Below are positions 1 through 37,083 of a stretch of DNA of 64,000 nt, piece after piece; positions within the stretch are counted from its first letter, which is position 1; every line of letters begins with the position of its first letter. Under the pieces are notes generated by a model that made no database searches, was not told where the DNA came from, and saw nothing but the letters and a program-made list of their open reading frames with translations. A program made the position numbers and the translations under genes. This DNA comes from Bryum argenteum (taxonomy: Eukaryota; Streptophyta; Bryopsida; Bryales; Bryaceae): NCBI GenBank assembly GCA_037043015.1, contig CM073324.1, forward strand, positions 3,899,413 to 3,963,412, in the 5' to 3' direction.

Positions 1-201
1 CTGTGTTGGTTAGCGAGATAGAGGAGCATGCAATGAGCAGGGTCCCTCCGGCTTGCAAAGAACGACCCATGCCAATTGTGCCGATGACGGCACTCGGCCT
101 TCGTAGGCGGGCACGAGGCAAAACCTGTTTTGACAATGCGGATCCTTCACCATGGATAGTAGTTGGTGGGAGCGTGCCCAATCTGGTTGGATTGTTGGAA
201 T

Positions 202-237
202 CCTCCCAGGACTTGCGTCGGACGCAAGTCCGGGAGG
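202..237. repeat. Palindrome copy 1
   Basis: Two 17-18-bp arms meet around a single central G. The inner arms are GGACTTGCGTC and GACGCAAGTCC, and the outer arms are CCTCCC and GGGAGG. It lies in the first unit of the tandem array. Confidence 0.85.
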
Positions 238-536
238 AGATCGACCGTTTTGAATTTTATTGGGTTTTTATTCGTTTGAATCTTCCTCGAGCCGCTCTCC
301 GCGGTGTGTCGGATTGAGTGCAGGATGCTAGCGTTCATGACCGGCCTCACTTGGCTCATTGCACTTGTCAATCGAGAATGTTCGCCGATGACGGCTCTGC
401 CCCTTGATGGCGGGCACGAGGTATATCTTGGCCAGGGCATAATGGGGATGCGTTTTTGTTTTGACAAGCGAGATCCTTTACCGCGGATAGCGATTGGTGG
501 GGAGCGTGCCCATGTATGCGGTTGGATTCTTTGAAA

Positions 537-570
537 CCTCCCGGACTTGCGTCGACGCAAGTCCAGGAGG
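537..570. repeat. Palindrome copy 2
   Basis: The core GGACTTGCGTCGACGCAAGT plus CC is self-complementary without a spacer. Its outermost pair is G-C, as in copy 1, unlike copies 3 and 4. Confidence 0.85.
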
Positions 571-737
571 GGAACGATCACCGGGATTTTTTGATATTTA
601 CACGCCCGAATCTTCCTTGAAATTTGCGTTGAATGTGTTGGATTACTACTTGCTTGCGTGTTTGTTGGATTGCCAAGTCACCAGTCTCATGACATTGGTG
701 CCGGTGACCTTAGAATGTTTGTTGGAATTGCTGGAAT

Positions 738-772
738 CCTCCCCAGACTTGCGTCGACGCAAGTCTGGGAGG
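738..772. repeat. Palindrome copy 3
   Basis: The core AGACTTGCGTCGACGCAAGT plus CT is self-complementary. Relative to copy 2 the outer pair has changed from G-C to A-T on both sides, which keeps the symmetry. It belongs to the shortened repeat unit. Confidence 0.85.
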
Positions 773-1076
773 AGATCGACCAGTTTGCATTTTTGTTTGG
801 TTTTTTATTTGTTTGAATCTGCCACGAGCTGCTCTGCCAGTGTGTCGGATTAAGGATTGCAGGATGCTTGCGTTCATGACCGGCCTCTCCTGGCTCGCAG
901 CACACGTCCAACAGCATGTTTGCCGATGACGGTTCTGTCTCTTTGGTGGCGGGCCTGAGGCATATGCTGGCTTCGGGGCATAATCGGGGATGCTTAGCTG
1001 TTTGGACAATGCAGATCCTTCACCATGGATAGCAGTTGGTGGGGAGCGTGCCCCTGTCTGGTTGGATTGCTGGAAA

Positions 1077-1111
1077 CCTCCCCAGACTTGCGTCGACGCA
1101 AGTCTGGGAGG
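1077..1111. repeat. Palindrome copy 4
   Basis: Identical to copy 3 over all 35 bases, including the A-T outer pair. It is followed by a T-rich run and is the last palindrome before the coding region begins. Confidence 0.85.
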
Positions 1112-1479
1112 AAACCGATCCCTTTGGTTATTTTTTTTATTTTTACATTCGATTCTTCCCCGGGCTTTTATGAATGTGTGTTGTATTAGCAGTTGCAGGG
1201 TGCTTGAGTGACTCCGTTTAAACTGGCTTGCAACAGCAGTCCCTTACCTTGGTTGCCGATGAGGGCTTGTGTGTTCCTTCGTGGCCAACCTGAGACAATT
1301 CCTCTATGCTACAAGGGCATCGATGAACAAGTTTGCTTTATTTTATGGTCTTTGGACTCCTTAGAAACGCAATTTTGTCTTTGCGGGATTGTGGCTCTAC
1401 GAGTTCTGTATGCTATGTTTTGCATTCTTTTTATTATATGTTTTACAAGATTTTACTTACTTAAATTTTTCGATTGTAT

Positions 1480-1935: not shown

Positions 1936-4900
1936 ATGACTACAGCTCAAGCTCATCTCATTGAAGATGAAGAAGTCAACGTGCTTCTTCCAAGTCCTTC
2001 TAAATCTGGAGCCCCGCAAGAGATTCCTACCGAAACTGATTTCCAACCTCTGGAAGGCGAAGCCAGTGCAGTTTCAAAAGACAATCCTCTCGAAGCTGCA
2101 GAGATTCAATTACCGTCCTCAGATCATGACATCGACCAATCCCTCTCAGATGATGAAGAAACTAGATTGCCGGGAGGTGTCAACGTAGGAATCATCCACA
2201 TGCCTCAACATCTTCAGAACAAGGACCCTGATTGGAGTGCGAACGAGATGCGAATGCTCCACAAGAGCGATTCGATTGCAATTATAAACAGGTTACGCTT
2301 CAAACCTGTTAAGAAGTCTCGTATGCTAATTCCACTTTGCCGTCTCGTTTGTTATCCGAAGGTTCGCCCGATCTCTGAACAAGACGTTAGAAAACTCGAG
2401 AATGAGTTCAACAAAGGTTATCGCGAAGGGGATCGGGTGATGTACGTCTCGCCTTTTGATCGGAAAGGCCGAGAAAAAATTGTTGACACTCAAGATGTAT
2501 TGTGGACGAACCCGCTTTGGAAAGCGGCAAATGAGGAGTTTGAGAGTTCGCTGCGGTCGGATCCAGATCTTCATGACCTGAGCGATAAATACTTTTATGT
2601 TTACGAGGGCAACCACCGTGTTACGGCGTGGATGCGTCATATCGAGAGGTACCACAAGAATGATCCCTCGTGGTACATTTCGGTTGACTGCATCGTACTC
2701 GATGCCCGTGGAGAAAGCAATGTCCTCCTCGATGCTATGAACGACATTAACTGGTAAGTACATGTCGCATTTCATACTTTCATTTTAAATTATAATTTTA
2801 TCATGTGGAATTTTTCTCATCGCTCGGTTTCATCTGTAGGTCCACCGAGCATGATCATGTCGAAGACAGTTTGTGTGCCAAACTCCAACGCATGAGGAAG
2901 TTTGGTAAATTGAAACTCGAAGATTTCAAGGACCTCATTTCTCCAGAAGATTACAGGATTTGTAAGAACGCGAAAGCAAAAAAGGAGACTTGGTATCCTG
3001 TCACTATAGATGTTTTTGTAAAATTTCTATACGCGGTACGTTGACTACATATGTGCTTGACTCTTCTTGACCAAATTTATTTGAAACAACTTCTGACTTG
3101 TGTTCTGATTGGTATATAGAGGAGGTTAGCGAAAGCATCGGACGACGCTGAGGCTGCGTACTACGCCACGGTTCCGAAAGACAAGCAAACAGGACCGGGC
3201 GTATGGAGTGCTATGGATAACGCCATCAAGGCTGAAATCAAGTCAATTCGTGGGAAGAATTTCGACAAAATGGTCGCTGTGGCGAACAACAAACTTGGAA
3301 AAGTTTTTGCGAAAGAGGTAATTGTGGCTGAGTTCGTCAGTTTCATGTCATTGTTTCTATCTTTTAGCTCTATTTCTCTTATTAAAAACGTGAATCTCAT
3401 GTGCAGATTTATTCTCATTACAGCCAAAATTTGAAACCCGATATGACAATCGATCGCTTACACATGGTAGCCACTACGAATGTTCACTTTGATTTCAAGG
3501 CAAAGTGGCTTCAATGGTGGAACTCACCTAACGAAGTGCGAGGATTATTTCGATTCCCTGAAGATCGCCCAATGAAAGATAAAGCTTTGGTCGGATTCCT
3601 ACACCGGGCTTCATTCTGGGCACAGGTAATTCTCATTTTCGTTCCATGATTACAAAATTTGAGTTTATCAGTTAGTTTAAATTCTAACATATTTCTTTTA
3701 TTTTCAGCTAGAGCAATCACTTGAAAATGAAATGCAGTATCTCGTTGCAAACGAGAACCTCAACATCGAGTGGTCTAGTGTTGTCTTGAAGCCCTCGGCG
3801 TATGTCGAGAAGTGGAGGGTCCTGTTATGGGACAAGGCATTCAACAACTACCTTGGTCCTAATGCAAGCCCAAAGTTCATCAAGGGCTCAGATCTTCAAA
3901 AGATTACCGGAGGCAAAGCCACAATTAAGCGGCTTATATTCCGGTATGTTTCCAATTGGTACAAGTACAATATTTATAAAATTGGTACAACTTGTTCGTT
4001 CTTCACCATAATTGTTCATATTTTTGTAGGTACTTAAAACAAGAGCTCGTTGCGAAGGGAGCATTAGCTTCGTTCTCCATTCCAATGGAGTTCGAGGACA
4101 TTTCAGTAACGAATGATCCTCGCAACTTCTTCTCCACTGCCCAACAAGAGCGGTTTACAAACTCCCAGTTGACGACCGGTGGATGGTTTCTAGAGTGCGA
4201 CGACAACTACGTGCACAAGGAGGAGAAGCATCTTCTTCGGAACCCCACTTCTAACCCTGCTGACTCCGCACTGATGGAAATTGACGATGATGACGATGAC
4301 AAAATATCTATTTTACCAGATGCACCTGATCCAATCTCTTCTCCTTCTTCACCAGTTGCAGTGCCTAAGTCCCGTGCAAACAGGAAGCGACGCAACAATG
4401 TTGCAGAGCCAGTTGTAGATCTTGAGCAAGAATCTGAAGAAAATGCTCCCCTCTCAGAAGACATTACAGGGCGTGAAGATGCTGATCTCACTCAGGCTTC
4501 AGCGGGAGCCGCGAACAATACAATTCGACGCGGTGCAAGATTGACTCAACTTTCTACAGGTGGACTTACGAATGCTGGGTCCCCTCCTCAATCATTCACC
4601 GTTGACCACAACTCTCAACAGTCTCCGCGTCGCCTCAGCCAGCCAGTATTTGCCAAACGTCCTCTTCCGAAACCAAATCACATTGGTAGCAGCTCATCAT
4701 CAAAAATTTCAGTCACTCTGCCAATGTATCTCGAGAAGGGCAACATTGGAGATTTGGTTCACCAGTCATCAAAGACTTCGATATGGGATTCGCAAATCCT
4801 CGATATCGTCAAGCACATCAAGAAGGTTTTACTTCATACCTTTGTCTTTCATAAACTTCTTATTACGTTTTGTACTTGTGAATCAATTAACCACTTTCTA

Positions 4901-6219
4901 ATTATTTACTTGTACCTCAGATTGGCAAAGACCGTAGGTACCCGTGTACAGCGATGGAGTTTGAACCCAAGCATCCAGGGATTGATCTCATTTTTGCAGA
5001 TGCTCCCGAGAACTTGCCTGTACCGGGGGTGTCTCCAACAGAAATTCCATCCTGGAACCGGCGGGACAAAACCTACTTTGAGAGCCTCTTCGTGTTTGCT
5101 GCCTATCATTTGACAGACGTTGGAGCCATTCTACTGATGCATCCCAAATGTCGTAGAATCGAGCGTACTCTCGATTCTGAGTCTGCAACATATAGTTTTC
5201 GTCTAGTTCGAGACTGGTGGGGATATAATCCCCTCCCTATGGCCTCTACCGTACCCAAACCGAAAGAGGTACGTAACAGATTCCAATTTTCAATTTCACG
5301 ATTCATGATTATTTCCGTCTATGCTTCTATGTTAACATATTTCTACTTGTGTTTTGCAGACTCACTGCTTCCACATCAAAGTCTATGTTCGTAAACAGTA
5401 TGTTCCAAGGTTCCAAACTCGGCAAGTGGCACACGCATATGGGGGTGTGGCAATCGTACCTGATGAGGAAGACCACCTATGTAACTTTGCAGAGAAAGAA
5501 ACATTACGTTATCGTCCGGACGGTACACCGTGGCGAGGCTCACGAGAGAAGGACCCGTCCTTCATTCAGTGTTTCGTCGATTGTCTCACGGACGACGGGG
5601 GTATAGTCTTTGACTGGAGCGCAAGTACAGGTATTGTTTCCATAGACTCTACAGTAGAATTCGTATGTATATTTTTCATGTCTAACGTGGGCTTCTGATT
5701 TTTTAGGTGCATCTGTGATTGCGTGCGCGCGCTCAAACCGACACCTCATCGCCATGGAACCTGACGAAGAAATTTTCGATGGTGTACTAGCGGATTACAA
5801 GAATGGTCCTCCCGGTGATGAAGAAAGTGGAGAATCGGCCCCTCCCGCAGATTATGACTCTGACGAACCAGTCGTGAAGAAGCCACGAAAATTCATTGGT
5901 GCGTAATTTCATATTGTATTCTTTTTATCGATTTAAGAAAACACACTTCCATATCGGTGACATTGACTTTCTTTGCAATTTTAGGATCGCAGGTCTGAAA
6001 GAGCGATTGTCTCGCAACGCTCATCTTTACAAGAGCCCTCCATCAAAATTCACCCTACCATCGTACGCGGAGCGTCTTGCTCAAGAGTTTGTTCAAGCTC
6101 CATCTCCCATTTTGTCTGACACTCCACGTCGACGTTATAGCAAGAGTGTGCTTAAGTTTATAGATTTTGAGGCAGATCAGTGTGATCAGCACTTTAATGG
6201 TACTACACCGTCTGCTTAG
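1936..6219 (+). CDS. ParB-like domain fused to beta-class DNA methyltransferase domain
   Basis: Ten exons joined at GT-AG sites give an uninterrupted 1,166-residue protein: 1936-2753, 2840-3035, 3120-3317, 3407-3625, 3708-3943, 4030-4825, 4921-5268, 5360-5630, 5707-5898 and 5993-6219. Residues about 140-272 resemble a ParB/sulfiredoxin-like fold, with a GNHR motif at 225-228. The middle is unassigned and includes an acidic, serine/proline-rich linker. The C-terminal third has the order of a beta-class N4/N6 methyltransferase: LIFADAPEN (D848) in the place of the DPPY motif IV, a LTDVGAILLMHP strand, then DWSASTGAS (1022-1030) aligned with the AdoMet motif DPFAGSGTT, followed by RHLIAMEPDEE. 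DPPY reads DAPE and GSG reads STG, so activity is doubtful. The ATG follows an acceptor-like CAG, so an upstream leader exon is likely. ParB-methylase fusions are known in phages and bacteria; function here is unknown. Confidence 0.8.
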
Positions 6220-6282
6220 TGTGTGATTTGTTTTCCGATAGGTACTACACCGTCTGCTTAGTGTGTGATTTGTTTTCCGATA
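6199..6282 (+). repeat. 42-bp tandem duplication over the stop codon
   Basis: Two identical 42-bp units lie back to back, followed by the first six bases of a third. The first unit contains the last codons and stop of the ParB-methyltransferase gene, so the second copy lies in the 3' untranslated region. Confidence 0.9.
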
Positions 6283-7296: not shown

Positions 7297-10200
7297 ATGA
7301 AAAAAAAAAATTCTGCCAATCACCGCTCACCGCTCACCGCTCTCCGCTCACACCCGTGCATTCCCCTTTATTGCCCTACTTTGCTAAGCCTATGTCCTCC
7401 AAAGAAGAACTTGGAATGGAATTTGCAGCATCATTTAGCATCTGCCAAGCATTTGCATAATGTTGAACAATCAGTGGCTGCTTCTAAGCGTCCCACTGCG
7501 ATTCTAAGTGGTAAGAGAGGCAGGCCCACACTATCATCTGGGGTTAGTGTTCACTCGAACCAACCTGATCTGGGGCGGTGGTGGAAGACCGGATCTGGTG
7601 CAACCGACACGGAAGGAGGTGAGGAAACTAACTTCAACCGTGATGACTGCTTGCGTTTGATGTGTTGGGGCTTTAGGGGTCCCACGTTTACATATTCTGG
7701 AGTTGTGTACTCGATTCGTGAGTTGTTGGATGATGTACATGTTGGGGGGGTTTGGTATTCTGAACCGCACTTGACAGCATGTGTGAATGTTAACGGTTCA
7801 TCTGTCAATGTCAAAGGTATTTTTAGGCATATGTCTTGTTTGAGGGTGGATCCATCGGGGTCTGGGTTTCTTAATCTTGCTTGCTCTATGTGTTCTGCAA
7901 TACCATTAGAAAATGATTTCAAAAAAAGAGTCCTACGTGAAGACGAAAATTGTGATAAGAGAGGGACTCGGAGCACTGGAGGAGGTAGAAGGATTGGTTA
8001 CTTACAGATTTCTGAACTTGCGAGGCATAGTCGAGAGTTAAGTAGAAAACTAAAAACTGACAAATTCTTGCTGATGGTTGCTCGTGCCAGAATTGTACAG
8101 CTCAAGGTAAGACGTCCAACTCTGCGTGAACTAGCGAGAGAGGCCTCATCAGAGCACAGTGTCACTAAGTTCTGCACTAGCATAATCAACGCACATAGAT
8201 CAGGTGCATTCGGAGGTAAGTCGGCATTGTGGGAATTCCTTAGTGATGTTGCTCAGAATCTCAATAGGGATGCTAGAGGGAACCGGTACAGTGAAAGTAC
8301 GAAGTGTTTAGGCGAAGTCATGAAGGTCTATGGAGGGCGTAGGATGATAGATATTTTCTCCTTGAATTTTGCTGGACCTAGCTACAGTCAAGTAAAGAGA
8401 GATTTACGTAAGGGGGTGCAATTCATACCTGGAGAGTATGCCGAAATCTTCGCAGCAGTTGCAGACATTTACCGAGCTGCAAAAGCAGCGCACAACATTA
8501 GTGGTCCAGTTCCGGTCATTTTAGCAGAGGACGAAACTAAAGTCAAAGGGAGAGTAGCTTGGGAACCGACATGGGATACTCTAGCGGATTCTGTGGGCCA
8601 TCAGCTAACCATGTTTGCGTCTCAGGTTTTAGACCGGTGGTCGGATCAGGTGAAGAGGGCTACCGAAAAATGGTGGAGTCCTTCACTGCTAACACTAAGG
8701 GGAGTTTCGCAAGAGTGGTGGTTGTGAATCCGCTGCACCCTAGACTGCCTCGCCTTGTCTTAGTCGCTTGCTGCACATGCAATTGCTTTAAGTCGGGATG
8801 GGTTAGAAATCAGTGGGCCGTGATTGATAGGCTGTGGCAGAAAGACTGCCTTGGCGCTGTAGGTCCAATAATTGGCCATGCATCCGATGGCGATTCCCGA
8901 AGGAGGCAGTTGATGCTTGCAGATATTAAGAGTGTCGAAGGGAACCGTCTTGACGTGGGGTGGGAAGGGTGGATGTTTACCGCCTCCTTAGATGATCGGG
9001 GGGACGCTAAGGGCTTGCACGACCAAGACTACCTCCATAATGGGAAGAAGCTGATCAACCCTTTGCTGTCAGCAGCAAGGGTACTTCAGTTGGGCGGGGA
9101 CTTGTGTCTACATAGTCACATCGAGCTGGTGTTCCAGCAGTTTTCGGTTGATGAACACGGGTTGAAGACAGAGGACGTTGATAGGAAGGACCGGCAAAAC
9201 TGGGGAGCCGCACAACGATTATGCCAGGCACGGGTTAGAAGCTGCTTGGCACGTATGCGTGACGTAGAGTATCCTCACAGAGAAAGAACTCTCGGGACAG
9301 AGTATTACCTTGAGATTTGCGCAAATTATATTGACATATTCTGTTCACCTAGATTAGATCTTCGTTCCAGGATTGTGTTGTGCGGTAAGGTTTCATTTTT
9401 TTTCAGAATATGGAGACTGTGGCTGCAAAATGGCGATCACGGAGTGTTAGGGAATTCGGTGAAACTAGTGGAAGCTAAAAATTTTGTGAGTCTGCAGTGC
9501 TTCTTGGATGTCCAGTTATCGTGTCATTTTGTGGTCCTTTTAATTTGTCATTTCAGGGACCGGTACCCAGAGTTAGCTGTGCCACTCCATCTGACGGGCA
9601 GTGACTCATGTGAGGTGTTCTTCTCGAAGATCGGAGGCATGAACGGGCATGAACGGGCATATGACTTTCACGAGCTAGTGAACACCGCCAACACTTTGAA
9701 CCATATCTCGGCCGTGGAATATGGAAATAACGGGATCGAGTTCAAGAAGCAGCACAATAAAATGGAGAATGTCTGGGAGGCGCTCCATAAGCTTGAACCA
9801 GGAGAAGAATGGTGCAATCTGGGAGACTATAGTAACATCTCCTCAAGTGCCGAGGTGATCAGTGCCCTCAAGGACGGATTAAAGGAGGCACAAGCACTAT
9901 TCAGGCCTCTAAACATGGCCCCTAGTCCACAATGCGTGGCAAAAAAAAAAGTCTGGTACGAGAAGCCATGGGTGATTGAGAGGGCCGATCCCAGAAGCTT
10001 TGCATACAAGGCCACTGTGAGGCCGGTTTCTGGAGAGGATGGGGACTCGGAGGTGCTACGGGACCGTCTGCATGCTGAGGAGTCGGGAACGCTGGACGCT
10101 GCCACAGACACGAGGGTCAGCACAAAATCTGCTGCAGAGGAGCTGGTCGACGATGGATTACAACATACTGCAATCATTGAAGAAGAGACCCGTAATGTGA

Positions 10201-10922
10201 TTACGGACCTCCTCAACCGAGCAGAGAACCAGGTAACATCTGTTTCGGCATCTGGGAAGATAGTGCCAACTGTAGAGGTAGGTAGCCATTCCATTTACAA
10301 GTCGACTCTAGTATCACAGTTGAATGGTAATGTGTTTCTTTCAAAAGATAGGTTGGCACGAATTAAACATAGCATCCAGTTCAATAATCACGATAATTGC
10401 CTACAGTCGGGGTCTTCATCTGGATCGAGTCTGTTATGCATAGGTTCAGATTGTGGAGTGCATTTTGTCCAACGAAGTACAACGAAACTGTCTTCTACTG
10501 TAAGATCTGCAGCCAAAAGAAAAAAGGGGCGTTCAAGTACTGCTAACAAAGCAGGTAATGCTACTAACATTTTGAGTGGAGTAGATGAGGGGTCCTGGTG
10601 GGTGGGCAGGGTGCAAGCTTTGCGGCGTCGCAATGGGCATCAATTTGGGGTACTACGTCAAGCAGTTGACCTCCTTGCCCGAACAGAGGAATCAGGGAGA
10701 AGAAATCCTAACAACCCTAACATTGAAGTAATGTTACAATACTATAGAAAACATCCAGGCCGTGATAAATTTAAATATGATCATACAGATAGCCAGTGGA
10801 TTGACATAGATTGTGTTATATCTACTGTAACCATGACTTACAATTCTACTAACGAGGTATACACACTAGACAGAAACGATTCGGACGTGCTGTCCAAGTT
10901 TGTGACGGACCGGGGTGCCTAG
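7297..10922 (+). pseudogene. Large P-element/THAP9-like transposase, one frameshift
   Basis: Frame 1 is open from 7297 to about 8590 and frame 3 from there to 10922. The protein reads continuously if one base is restored near 8578-8592 (WEPTWDTL then GFCGPSANHV). RNase-H-like acidic motifs are visible: VILAEDETKVKGRVAW (about 8515), IIGHASDGDSRR (about 8870) and LTGSDSCEVFFSKIGG (about 9592), the last resembling the late acidic helix of P-type transposases. A region with ACSMCSAIP (about 7873) may bind metal. The C-terminus adds a segment starting WWVGRVQALRRR (about 10597) of unknown role. The true start is uncertain, since the first 30 codons cover a microsatellite. Family assignment rests on motif order only. 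I found no terminal inverted repeats. Confidence 0.6.
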
Positions 10923-32483: not shown

Positions 32484-32706
32484 TCTTTTGCTTCTAATAT
32501 GCTGTACAACTCAGGTGTGTCAGGAGTATATTTGGTTTATCTTTGTCTGTCTTGATAGTTGTGTTTTGATAGCTGTGTCAGTTATCTTTTCTTGTACCTT
32601 CTTGTGACTCGTATGTCCTCATTGCTGTCTGGTCTCCAGTAATTTTGTGTCTTTTCTTGGCCTCGAAATCTCGTTTAAAACTTTGCAAAGTTTGCTACAA
32701 GCCACT

Positions 32707-34032
32707 ATGGCGGACAGTACGCGTGATCTTGGTAGCATCTCTCGTTTTAAGGGGACTAACTTCCATCTCTGGAAATTCCAAATGCAGGCTATCTTGTTGG
32801 GAAAAGAACTCATGCCCATTGTTGAGGGTACGATACCCAAACCAGGCTACGGTTCAGATCCTGCTGACATTTCTGAATGGGTCAGACGGGACAGTCAGGC
32901 TTTTAGTTTACTGTGTCAAGCTCTTGATGAGTCCATTCTCAAACACATAGTCTCATGCACTACTTCCAGAGAGATTTGGGAGAAACTAATGTTGATCCAT
33001 GAGAGGAACACATCAGAGAATGTTCACTCATTACAGGAGGAGTTCTATAAGTGTTCCATGACTGAAGGTGAGAGCGTCGCTGATTTTCTTAGCAAGCTCG
33101 ATTTTATTGTGTCCCAACTCACCAGTCGAGGAGACAACACCTTCACCGAGCAAGCGCAGATTTCAAAGATTTTGTCTAATCTTCCGGGGGCTTTCGACAG
33201 CATGCTACCTGCCTGGCGCATGCAACCTGATGCGGTGAAGACCCTGCCGAATCTGACGCTCCAACTGCTACAGACGGAGGGCATGCATAAGATGCGTGCC
33301 GATGCCATCATTGCTTCATCTGCAGCATACGCTGCATCAGCAAAAGGAAAAAGCTCCAGTGAGTTTACCCCGGAGCAGCGAGCTGCTCGGAAGAAGGAGA
33401 TTGCCGAGCGCAAGAAGGCAACTGACTGCTGGAAATGTGGCGTTAAAGGGCACTGGGGTAAAGAGTGCCAAGCTAGTGATGAGGACCAGCGTAAGTATCA
33501 AGAGCTGAAGCGTAAAGTGGCAAGTGATCAGTCTTCCGGCTCTAGCCAGACTGGTAATTTAAAGGCGTACATGGCTTGCATCCGTGAAGATCGAGATCAC
33601 TCACTGCTTTGGTACGTTGACTCGGGCTGCACCGAACATATGACTACAGATCGGTCATTCTTCACGACATATTTAGATTTGTCTCACCCTCGCTCCGTTG
33701 AAGGCATCGGCAGTGTGCAACTCCAAGCAGTTGGGCACGGAGACATCCACATCAAGATTCAGCAGTCGGAAGGGTTTACGTATGGAGTGTTGAAGGACGT
33801 ATTGTATGTACCAGGCCTTGGGCGGAATCTGTTTTCATCCTATGCTGCTGCTCAACGACAGATATTTACGCTCCACACCAATATTGGATGTCACATGCTT
33901 GAAAATGGAAAGAAAGTCATGACGGGAGTAGTGCAAGATCGCATGTATCGACTGCTTGTCACTGTAGTTCACCAAGACTCAGAGCAGCCCGCTCAAGCTT
34001 TTCACCGTGTCTTTTGGTGTTCGACACAGTGA
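32707..34032 (+). CDS. copia Gag and protease
   Basis: The ORF starting MADSTRDLGSISRFKGTNFH has a gag core, a CCHC zinc knuckle (CWKCGVKGHWGKEC, about 33430), then the aspartic protease motif YVDSGCTEHMT (about 33612) with the DSG triad. Gag packages the RNA and protease matures the polyprotein. The frame is lost just before the integrase zinc motif (out-of-frame WHRRLSHTS, about 34057). The methionine at 32707 is preferred over the in-frame ATG at 32647, because gag homology starts there. Confidence 0.85.
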   Translation: MADSTRDLGSISRFKGTNFHLWKFQMQAILLGKELMPIVEGTIPKPGYGSDPADISEWVRRDSQAFSLLCQALDESILKHIVSCTTSREIWEKLMLIHERNTSENVHSLQEEFYKCSMTEGESVADFLSKLDFIVSQLTSRGDNTFTEQAQISKILSNLPGAFDSMLPAWRMQPDAVKTLPNLTLQLLQTEGMHKMRADAIIASSAAYAASAKGKSSSEFTPEQRAARKKEIAERKKATDCWKCGVKGHWGKECQASDEDQRKYQELKRKVASDQSSGSSQTGNLKAYMACIREDRDHSLLWYVDSGCTEHMTTDRSFFTTYLDLSHPRSVEGIGSVQLQAVGHGDIHIKIQQSEGFTYGVLKDVLYVPGLGRNLFSSYAAAQRQIFTLHTNIGCHMLENGKKVMTGVVQDRMYRLLVTVVHQDSEQPAQAFHRVFWCSTQ

Positions 34033-34049
34033 AGGCCGCTTGATCGCTT

Positions 34050-34810
34050 GAGATTTGGCATCGTCGATTATCCCACACTAGCTACCAAACAGTCCAGTAG
34101 ATGGCAGCCCAAGGTGTTGTCGACGGCATGATTAACTCAACAAGAACGGCGCTTTTGCTGGGTTTGCGTGTATGGGAAGCGTAATCGTCATGCATTTCCC
34201 ACGACGAGTATAGGGAGCGGTCGGTCATGCCGGGAGATCTCGTCCACACAGACTTGTGTGGACCTATGTCTACCTCTTCCATCGGTGGAGCATTATACTT
34301 TGTCCTATTCAAGGATGATGACAGGTATCGTGTTATCGAATGTTTAAAAACGAAGTCGATACCATCAAAGCCTGTCGCCGTTTTTGTATTTCGATTCGAT
34401 TTTTGCGAGACACCGCCACACGATCAAGATTGTGCGGAGCGATCGTGGCACCGAGTTTACCAGCCATGTCTTTCGGCAGTTTCTTGACTCGAACGCTATC
34501 AAGCAGGAATTGACAACACCGTCAACGCCGGAACAGAACGGCGCAGCTGAGCGCGATAATCGTACTATCGTTGAAGCGGTGCGATCTATGTTGCATGCAG
34601 GCAATGTGGCACACAGGTTCTGGGGAGAGGCTGCACACACCGCAGTCTACACACTCAATCGAACAGCATCTCGTACGCTAGACGGCCGCACGCCATACGA
34701 GCTCTGGTTCAAGAAAAAGCCATCTGCGGGTCTTTGCCTCTGATGCTTACGTCCATGTTCCTAAGGCGTTTCGCAAGAAACTCCATGCCAAGAGTCGGAA
34801 GAGAATATTC
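34050..34810 (+). pseudogene. copia integrase, frame-broken
   Basis: Integrase motifs occur in different frames: WHRRLSH (HHCC part, about 34057), [13 protein letters not shown] (about 34158), [12 protein letters not shown] (first D, about 34232), [12 protein letters not shown] (second D, about 34426) and NGAAERDNRTIVEAVRSML (E, about 34535). At least three frameshifts and an in-frame TAG are needed to explain this, so no working integrase can be made from this copy. Confidence 0.8.
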
Positions 34811-36208
34811 ATGGGGTATTCCGCCACTAGTAAGGCGTACAGGATCTGGAATACTGAATTGTGCCGCATTGAGGAGAGTCGCGACGTCATATTTCACGAA
34901 GATCTTTCGACAGAAGGACTTGGTGGGAGCTCTGACTGGTTTACTTATCCGTCTGACACTGGACCGGTGGGAGATCTTGCGCCGATGCGTCACCAAGCAA
35001 TGCCACCACCAGCAATGCAACCAATGCTTCTACCACTGCCGGCAGTAGGTGCTCAAGGAAATGCACATCTAGTGGGAGCTCTTCCAATTCCTGTTGGAGT
35101 GCCACCTATCGTTCGTCTTCGTCCAACTCCCCAGTTGCTGCAGCAAGAGGAGCTCAACAGCCCTCTAGTTCCGATCAGTCTTCCGAGCAGTGGTGACTCG
35201 CTTGGTGATGATGTACGCATCTCAGGCTCCCAAAGCATAGACGATGATTCAGTTGGTCATGGTGACGATGTTCCTATACTTGTCGATGCAATCGATGAGA
35301 TCCGGGATGCCGAGGCGGTAGTAGAAGCAAGTGATGCTCTTGCTACGTTGCAGAACCCGGAGTTGGCTCCAACAGAGTCGGCATCTGTTGGCGATGGTAC
35401 AGGCCAAGTACAAGGAGCTAGGCAACGCAATCCCCCGCTCCGATACGGTGATTGGATATATCCCGTCAGTAGAAATTCGTATGCATGCACTGCTACAGTT
35501 TCAGACCTACCCATCGAACCACACACTTTTGACGAAGCGATGGCCTCCCCACAGCGGGATAACTGGCTTCAGGCCATGAACGATGAGTACGCATCCCTGA
35601 TGGCTAATCAGACCTGGCGTCTTGAGCCTCTTCCTAGTGACAGAAAGGCCGTCAAAAACAAGTGGGTATTTAAGATTAAACTTGCTTCTGATGGCTCCGT
35701 TGACAGGTATAAGGCCAGGTTGTGTGCCAAGGGATACACCCAACGCGAAGGCTTAGATTACAAGGATACGTTCAGCCCGGTTGTTAAATTTGACTCCATC
35801 CGAGTTCTACTCTCAGTGGCTGCAGCAGAGGATTTGCACATTAGCCAGTTTGACGTTCGTATAGCGTTTCTGTATGGTAAGATCGAAGAAACGATCTACA
35901 TGGAGCAAGCTCCTGGCTTTCAAGACCCGACTGCTCTGCACCAAGTCTGCCGCCTACAGAAGGCTCTCTACGGGTTGAAGCAGAGTCCGCGCGTCTGGAA
36001 TAAGAAGTTTGATCAGTTTCTCCAAGCCTACGACCTTGAAGTCTCCGATGCAGATGCTTGTGTCTACGTGAACAAGCCCCACGCATCCCGCTTGTTCATT
36101 GCGATTTGGGTCGATGATGGTATTATCTGCAGTGAACAGAGGGACACCATCAAAAGTGTTCTTGATTACATGGAAGGAGCCTTCGAAATTACGAAAGGAC
36201 TTCTTTGA
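34811..36208 (+). CDS. copia integrase tail and reverse transcriptase
   Basis: The open frame starts in the integrase C-terminal region (MGYSATSKAYRIWNTEL) and passes a long proline/serine linker. It then enters reverse transcriptase: NKWVFKIKLASDGSVDRYKA, FSPVVKFDSIRVLLSVAA, LYGLKQSPRVWNKKFDQFL, and the active-site strand AIWVDDGIIC at about 36102, where the usual Tyr of YVDD is Trp. The frame is lost at about 36190, before the connection to RNase H. Confidence 0.85.
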   Translation: MGYSATSKAYRIWNTELCRIEESRDVIFHEDLSTEGLGGSSDWFTYPSDTGPVGDLAPMRHQAMPPPAMQPMLLPLPAVGAQGNAHLVGALPIPVGVPPIVRLRPTPQLLQQEELNSPLVPISLPSSGDSLGDDVRISGSQSIDDDSVGHGDDVPILVDAIDEIRDAEAVVEASDALATLQNPELAPTESASVGDGTGQVQGARQRNPPLRYGDWIYPVSRNSYACTATVSDLPIEPHTFDEAMASPQRDNWLQAMNDEYASLMANQTWRLEPLPSDRKAVKNKWVFKIKLASDGSVDRYKARLCAKGYTQREGLDYKDTFSPVVKFDSIRVLLSVAAAEDLHISQFDVRIAFLYGKIEETIYMEQAPGFQDPTALHQVCRLQKALYGLKQSPRVWNKKFDQFLQAYDLEVSDADACVYVNKPHASRLFIAIWVDDGIICSEQRDTIKSVLDYMEGAFEITKGLL

Positions 36209-37083
36209 GATATTTGTCGGTCTCCATATTACACGTGATCGGGACGGCGTTTAATCCATCCGGATCGTGGCGATATCCGGAGAGGGTGCTACAACGCTTC
36301 AATCATGAGAATTGTAACCCAGCCGTGGTGCCTGCAGATCCCAACAGTGCGACGGAACTTGTCATCACCAGTCCCACTACAACTGATGTTGTCACGTGGC
36401 CTTATCGTGAGTGTATTGGTTGTCTGCAGTTCGCCTCGATAGGGACACGCATGGATATCAGTTATGCCGTGAGCAACGCTGCGAAGTTCAGCAGTCGGCC
36501 CAATGCTACTCACGTCTCGGCAGTCAAGCGAATTCTACGGTATATTCGTGGCACGCTAGATATGCACATTACGTATGGCCCGGTGAAACCCAAAGACATG
36601 CATCAGCTGGTGGCGTACTGCGATGCCGACTATGCAGCCGACATCGATGACAGAAAGTCCAGGTCAGGTTTTCTGCTCATGCTGAATAGTGGTCCGGTGG
36701 CATGGGGAAGTTGTAAGCAAACCTGCACGGCAGGCAGTACCACCGAATCTGAGCATATTTCTGCCTCGTTAGCTTCCCAGGAGGTTATATGGATGAGGCG
36801 ACTACTTGCCAGTATTCGCTTTCCCCAGACTGGGCCGACCAAGTTGTTTAGCGATAACCAAGCAGCCATACGCCTGGTTCAGAATCCAATCTTTCATCAG
36901 CGCACTAAACACATAGCAACTAAGTTTCACAAGATTCGGGAGGCACAACATGATGGTGAAATTGCACTTCTCTACATCGCCACCAAAGACCAGCTCGCTG
37001 ACGTTCTCACGAAGCCGCTACCCCGGGATAAGTTCAAGCGCATATGTTTCCAAGCTGGGCTGAATGCTGCACCTGTTACTTAA
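36205..37083 (+). CDS. copia RNase H
   Basis: The C-terminal part of Pol in a separate frame: YCDADYAADIDDRKSRSGF (catalytic Asp region, about 36618), CTAGSTTESEHISASLASQE, LFSDNQAAIRLVQNP and TKHIATKFHKIRE. It ends LADVLTKPLPRDKFKRIC, the standard copia Pol end. RNase H degrades RNA in the RNA-DNA hybrid. The listed ATG is only the first Met of the open stretch, not a real start. Confidence 0.85.
   Translation: MRYLSVSILHVIGTAFNPSGSWRYPERVLQRFNHENCNPAVVPADPNSATELVITSPTTTDVVTWPYRECIGCLQFASIGTRMDISYAVSNAAKFSSRPNATHVSAVKRILRYIRGTLDMHITYGPVKPKDMHQLVAYCDADYAADIDDRKSRSGFLLMLNSGPVAWGSCKQTCTAGSTTESEHISASLASQEVIWMRRLLASIRFPQTGPTKLFSDNQAAIRLVQNPIFHQRTKHIATKFHKIREAQHDGEIALLYIATKDQLADVLTKPLPRDKFKRICFQAGLNAAPVT

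Follow-up and report, generated by a model that had tools for sequence, protein, structure and literature searches.

Why does a moss carry a gene that seems to join a ParB-like domain to a DNA methyltransferase domain, and what might its product do? We address this question for a window of 64,000 nucleotides from Bryum argenteum (assembly GCA_037043015.1, contig CM073324.1, positions 3,899,413 to 3,963,412 of the forward strand), in which the gene in question occupies positions 1936 to 6219. The gene is almost certainly an accessory gene of a large, multicopy, Mutator-like DNA transposon with terminal inverted repeats. In the window lineage, a 20-bp palindrome, GACTTGCGTCGACGCAAGTC, stands in the repeats between this gene and the transposase gene of the element, and it is conserved while most of the surrounding repeat sequence is unrelated from lineage to lineage. 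We favor the reading, to which we give a probability of roughly 0.45, that the accessory protein recognizes the palindromes of its own element and controls or protects expression from it.

A gene carried by a transposon

The gene is one of many. The genome that holds the window spans 258.8 Mb in 25 contigs, and of 1,228 candidate matches to exon 1 in it at least 141 scored as copies. Two of these copies were traced to both ends of the element, at 16.2 kb (contig C2) and 15.7 kb (contig C5). At positions 14-47 of their termini, both full copies have an inverted-repeat core of 34 bp, in register and with identities of 33/34 (B) and 32/34 (C), and both are flanked by target-site duplications: GCGCAAATC (9 bp) in one copy and TTGATCGAT in the other (9 bp, or 10 bp with the preceding C). 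Mutator-like elements (MULEs) generate target-site duplications of 8-11 bp, usually 9. Because the duplications of 9 to 10 bp and the terminal inverted repeats of the two full copies agree with such elements, we term the element Mutator-like, with reservation. The window copy carries the same right inverted-repeat core (7320..7353, minus strand), and the element ends at about 7366; alignment with related copies stops at window position 7366 to 7369, and a presumed target-site duplication occupies 7367..7375, as read from the right flank only.

The full copies share one layout. The transposase is encoded on the opposite strand in the left half, the ParB-like gene lies at the opposite end and is transcribed away from it, and the palindrome repeats stand between the two genes. 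A close relative of the transposase is a 764-residue open frame. By eye, this frame looks MULE-like, with two Asp residues in turn, then CxxH, and a SWIM-like CxC...CxH farther on. The transposase has no Pfam match, and the 52 genomic matches to PF10551 are all more than 28 kb from each of the 150 listed transposase copies.

This divergent arrangement recurs across the genome. A scored transposase lies within 15 kb of 41 of the 141 exon-1 copies, and in all 41 the pair is divergent with the transposase on the 5' side; random placement at the same distance gave a mean of 0.94 divergent pairs and a maximum of 4 in 200 trials. Within 30 kb, 54 of 58 pairs are divergent. These counts are lower bounds because scoring covered 150 of the 1,177 transposase candidates.

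The first-pass annotation of the window had offered two origins for the gene: membership in a eukaryotic mobile family, or ancient transfer followed by domestication. The copy number, the ends with their duplications, and the divergent transposase bear out the mobile family and lend no support to domestication. Domestication by the host of a bacterial or phage gene would fit an intact frame with nine conserved introns, but the copies are many and dispersed, with a linked transposase, and the two that were traced from end to end show transposon termini with target-site duplications, which leaves this explanation scarcely credible.

One contig stands out in these counts. Contig C1 (44 Mb) carries 59 of the 141 exon-1 matches and 72 of the 150 transposase matches, some with stop codons; possibly it is a chromosome that does not recombine or that purges slowly.

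A conserved palindrome between the two genes

In the window, the 20-bp palindrome occurs at 544..563, 746..765, and 1085..1104, and a form with one additional central base occurs at 210..230. These sites lie in the right end of a repeat array (1..1297) that runs on through the 20 kb read leftward. Allowing at most 2 mismatches per arm, we count 39 palindrome sites over 22 kb upstream of the window gene, and 95 sites in 17 of the 21 sequences examined. Because the 95 sites were gathered for their resemblance to the core, part of its invariance among them is built in; what supports it independently is the genome-wide count together with the differing surroundings. The exact 18-bp core is present 444 times in the genome, and the reversed pattern is absent (0 sites). 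As for the surroundings, we compared 12 lineages using a few randomly sampled site pairs each: at 30-130 bp from the centre, the flanks of the window lineage match those of the 11 others at 0.57-0.61, and shuffled sequence at 0.58-0.60. Several further lineage pairs reach up to 0.66 vs about 0.58.

The symmetry extends beyond the core. The arms agree above expectation at positions 11, 13, 14, 16, and 17 from the centre (0.91 vs 0.48 expected at position 11; 0.84 vs 0.46 at position 17), but not at positions 12 and 15, and some lineages have perfect palindromes as long as 48-52 bp. The palindromes also keep company with the element. In a test on the first 50 of the 444 sites, 12 of the 19 palindrome clusters on contig C1 lie at most 15 kb from a scored element gene, against 2.1 expected by chance and a maximum of 9 in 300 trials. 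Tandem Repeats Finder reports arrays in 15 of 18 upstream stretches, with none in L011, L018, or L026.

The extent of the arrays varies. In the window copy, a regular pattern that measures about 1,435 bp and includes several palindromes continues through all 20 kb upstream; in two related copies (L029, L032) the arrays are only about 3 kb.

The palindromes may serve some other role, such as transposase binding, hairpin formation, or replication, and be unbound by the ParB-like protein. Palindromes of 18 to 52 bp with no spacer could form extruded hairpins, the repeats sit between both genes and are thus usable by either product, and the ParB-like core is common to copies without the palindrome. 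Yet the terminal inverted repeats, presumably the expected target of a Mutator-type transposase, do not contain the palindrome, and a symmetric conserved core in freely changing surroundings is what selection by a dimeric DNA-binding protein would leave. We consider such another role rather unlikely.

Gene structure and purifying selection

The first-pass annotation had proposed ten exons with GT-AG sites in a single frame, and this model holds when rebuilt exon by exon: 3,501 nt, 1,166 residues, and a single terminal stop. All exons are on the plus strand. Exon 1 (1936..2753) encodes a variable N-terminal tail (residues 1-80) and the ParB-like region (residues about 121-272). Exons 2 to 5 (2840..3035, 3120..3317, 3407..3625, and 3708..3943) lead to exon 6 (4030..4825), which holds the central region and a low-complexity linker. 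The methyltransferase domain begins in exon 7 (4921..5268), which contains its first half with the motif IV region; exon 8 (5360..5630) carries a motif X-like element and the beginning of motif I (DWSASTG from 5612), exon 9 (5707..5898) the remainder of the motif I region, and exon 10 (5993..6219) ends in the stop codon. Position 5992 is the final acceptor; using 5984 instead disrupts the frame. A 42-bp tandem duplication (6199-6282) lies across the stop codon.

Onto this model we projected 16 other genomic copies, namely those of 20 fetched that span the entire gene (L014, L015, L026, and L027 were excluded). Intron positions are conserved, and GT-AG is kept in 143 of 144 introns; intron 8 of L028 is counted as GT-AG despite an alignment insertion at the acceptor, and the only exception is intron 5 of L018. 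In 9 of the 16 copies every length difference of an exon relative to the window is a multiple of three. The other 7 have exon indels that are not divisible by three, and internal stops are absent in just 2 of the 16 (L018, L022), so most copies are damaged. Two sequences, L033 and L034, were considered as spliced retrocopies, that is, as evidence of transcription, and were rejected: their intron gaps are internal deletions, not precise intron losses.

The ratio of nonsynonymous to synonymous substitution rates (dN/dS) was taken from the window and the 9 copies with multiple-of-three exon indels, with stop codons omitted from the counts; L011 in this set retains a locally shifted stretch. The median pairwise value is 0.18 for the entire protein (45 pairs, 10 sequences) and 0.20 for the methyltransferase domain (residues 801-1075), and it is lowest, at 0.09, in the ParB-like region (residues 121-272). 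Low dN/dS across copies supports the frame; judged by these alignments, the gene model is real and under purifying selection. A neutral passenger captured by the transposon would suit the 7 copies with frame-disrupting indels and the internal stops in all but 2 of the 16, but not values far below 1 that are lowest in the ParB-like region, nor the retention of the gene in subfamilies with 53-60% identity in the methyltransferase exons. We regard it as very improbable.

A degenerate methyltransferase domain

The C-terminal domain resembles phage enzymes. PHROG 3008 matches it (expectation value, E, 1.2e-4), as do 95 phage records, of which the best 20 listed comprise 16 DNA methylases or methyltransferases, 3 unannotated entries, and 1 hypothetical protein. 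A profile comparison with phage ParB-methyltransferase fusions gives E 7.5e-5. The Pfam family PF01555 matches at E 0.014, under its cut-off, and the PDB profile search returned only a weak match to a DNA adenine methyltransferase (E 0.23). In the sequence, motif IV precedes motifs X and I, the beta-class order that the first-pass annotation had described. By its profiles and motif order, the domain is a beta-class N4/N6 methyltransferase fold.

The motifs themselves are altered. At the motif IV position (4999..5010, plus strand), the window gene encodes D-A-P-E in place of DPPY. Among 16 sequences, this position reads DAPE in 9, DVPE in 4, DIPE in 1, DVSE in 1 (L037), and DALE in 1 (L023): D-[A/V/I]-P-E in 14, the proline replaced in 2, and an aromatic residue in none, so that the beta-class catalytic motif [D/N/S]PP[Y/F/W] is absent from all of them. 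A degraded copy, L033, has DAPK. The first glycine of motif I is lost relative to the phage enzymes. The rotifer enzyme N4CMT loses its activity when Ala replaces the Ser and Tyr of SPPY (PMC8885841). Because motif IV lacks an aromatic residue in all 16 sequences, catalysis by the encoded protein is doubtful.

Alternatively, the protein could be catalytically active on N4 of cytosine or N6 of adenine and mark the element that encodes it, with the palindromes perhaps serving as guides. The beta-class fold and motif order would agree with this, as would purifying selection on the domain (median 0.20). Self-modification of this kind has been suggested by Dinatale et al. (PMC12477816), and in phages, fusions of ParB folds to predicted DNA methyltransferases are frequent (PMC12704722). 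The altered motif IV, the lost glycine, and the inactive rotifer mutant count against it, and we think an active enzyme quite unlikely. The fold may have lost base methylation and now act as a DNA- or S-adenosylmethionine-binding part, or it may mark the element's own DNA. The degenerate catalytic motif is also a warning that domain names are an unsafe basis for predicting DNA methylation. The class itself does operate in plants: the statement in the first-pass annotation that plants are not known to rely on it is at odds with Marchantia sperm, where N4-methylcytosine is made by MpDN4MT1a/b (PMC8566409).

Proposed recognition of the element by its own protein

Self-recognition is, in our view, the best explanation of the locus because the divergent promoter region holds a conserved palindrome beside a gene that is under strong selection and likely encodes a DNA-binding protein. 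The ParB-like protein would bind the palindromes as a dimer, and many molecules would load on the element. ParB-like clamp loading would be followed by spreading over the element, and many sites would be useful because of such loading and spreading. The bound protein would then regulate the divergent promoters and counter host silencing, a role like that of the VANC proteins of Arabidopsis transposons. We infer binding, spreading, and the effect on silencing with unequal confidence. From the sequence features, binding of the palindromes has about an even chance of being correct. By analogy with VANC, anti-silencing or derepression as the outcome is a tentative proposal that falls short of that. 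On the unlikely side, if still worth stating, is the fullest version: a eukaryotic transposon with a parS-like system, in which a catalytically degenerate ParB-like protein would load at palindromes, spread, and override silencing or coordinate transposition, with repeats that differ by subfamily.

The evidence for a ParB-like region begins with the GNHR motif (residues 225-228; 2608..2619, plus strand), which the first-pass annotation had pointed out and which is indeed present. It is kept in two subfamily members that are 62-63% identical (L056, L057), and L055 has GNHH. Our alignments comprise 6 (A1), 17 (A2), and 8 (A5) sequences. The ParB-like partition family phrog_1033 matches the segment containing GNHR at E 0.0072 and is matched by 7 of the 8 members of A5. 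Pfam matches of 17 members include no ParB model, and the PDB profile searches gave no ParB match. A tblastn search of phages with exon 1 found no match, and scans of IMG/VR with both domain profiles gave 39 and 11 pattern stretches, none confirmed as viral relatives. The assignment of residues about 121-272 to ParB is plausible, even probable, but weak.

Several observations weigh against self-recognition. On the side of the protein, hhalign comparisons with phage ParB domains align the same segment at non-significant values (E 0.30 and 0.34), and single-sequence AlphaFold models of the N-terminal region reached a predicted local distance difference test score (pLDDT) of 35 and 33. On the side of the DNA, the flanks of the palindrome are shared among L014, L016, and L023 at 0.73-0.83, and blastn finds matches of 70-82% over about 100-250 bp around sites between the window and both L011 and L013. 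Some of the repeats found by Tandem Repeats Finder are without the palindrome, and template-switch correction can keep long palindromes symmetric without selection. CpG content, tried as a record of silencing, gave no clear sign of protection and did not discriminate. On the side of the element, the left end and transposase of the window copy were not found within 20 kb left of the window, and the transposase frames are interrupted in both full copies. Lastly, the palindrome was not found in the 3 kb upstream of four copies, L025-L028, and the ParB-like core of L025 differs little from that of palindrome-bearing copies.

These four copies form a subfamily with 73-75% identity in exon 1. L025, L027, and L028 have unrelated tandem repeats at the same place upstream, and L026 has none. 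Relative to the first group, L025 is most divergent at residues 41-80 (23% agreement), and residues 81-280 agree at 82-95%. Because the core of L025 is nearly unchanged in a copy without the palindrome, specificity for the palindrome would lie elsewhere in the protein, or the palindrome would have another reader.

Surroundings in the window

The interval 7391-10919, which begins just past the transposon's right end, contains two long open frames of 444 and 793 aa; neither has a Pfam match, and they are possibly another mobile element. A copia-type retroelement with Pfam matches to gag, pol, and reverse transcriptase lies at 32608-37077. The window also contains an EF-hand open reading frame, which we take to resemble CBL.

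Comparison with known systems

The closest known relative by description is Sola1-1_Ec32 of Ectocarpus, a 21.5-kb element with a 1,104-residue gene that joins a ParB-like domain to an N4/N6 methyltransferase domain (Dinatale et al. 2025, PMC12477816). The first-pass annotation was not aware of any such description; besides this published case, Dinatale et al. cite Iyer 2011 and Petroll 2025 for transposons of green and red algae (PMC12477816). The Ectocarpus and Bryum genes, compared by description, share the two-domain plan, a similar length (1,104 vs 1,166 residues), a position on the strand opposite the transposase, and residence in a giant DNA transposon. They differ in the carrier, which in Bryum is Mutator-like by its ends, its duplications, and motifs that we presume to be diagnostic. 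They differ too in the repeats with a conserved palindrome, which the available part of the paper does not mention for the Ectocarpus element (PMC12477816). In open-licence literature on ParB and MULEs, the Ectocarpus paper alone was relevant by title; for a conserved palindrome array accompanying such a gene, no description appeared among the open-licence matches listed, judged by title and the start of the abstract. The gene type is known from algal transposons, and the Mutator-like carrier and the conserved palindrome are what appears to be new. Dinatale et al. suggest that proteins of this kind may bind the transposon they come from and modify it, and the available part of their paper reports no known target for the algal genes (PMC12477816). 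The Bryum element offers a candidate. Since the element itself supplies this candidate palindrome, the function of the protein is directly testable by a binding assay.

Fusions of ParB-CTPase folds to N6/N4 methyltransferases are also recorded in phages (PMC12704722). The five phage fusions that we compared (L047, L049, L051, L052, L053) have the same order, a ParB-like N-terminus followed by a beta-class methyltransferase. They are 392-499 residues long and intronless, and all 5 have TDPPY, whereas in the Bryum protein the central region is long and motif IV is degenerate. Bacterial ParABS systems with parS also place several palindromic sites beside the gene for a ParB-like protein; in Bryum the ParB fold is a probable one, and a role in segregation is not indicated.

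VANDALs are MULEs, and they provide the model for the outcome that we propose. The short motifs to which VANC proteins bind in Arabidopsis make up tandem repeats that change rapidly and that lie in the noncoding DNA of VANDAL elements (PMC5735166; PMC10398659). Their target repeats differ between related elements, and the proteins mix conserved domains with highly variable regions (PMC5735166). The Bryum element likewise has an extra gene beside the transposase and noncoding tandem repeats with a short motif that are fast-changing and specific to a family; its motif repeats differ between subfamilies, and residues 41-80 vary beside a conserved core as the variable regions of VANC do (PMC5735166). 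VANC differs in that its motifs are 8-9 bp, with palindromes unmentioned in the main text of PMC5735166, and in that anti-silencing has been shown for VANC, whereas for the Bryum protein we would extend it from element organization. If the Bryum protein does counter silencing, it would do so by a route whose domain plan is unlike that of VANC and whose logic is similar, and large plant transposons would then be seen to evolve sequence-specific self-protection repeatedly.

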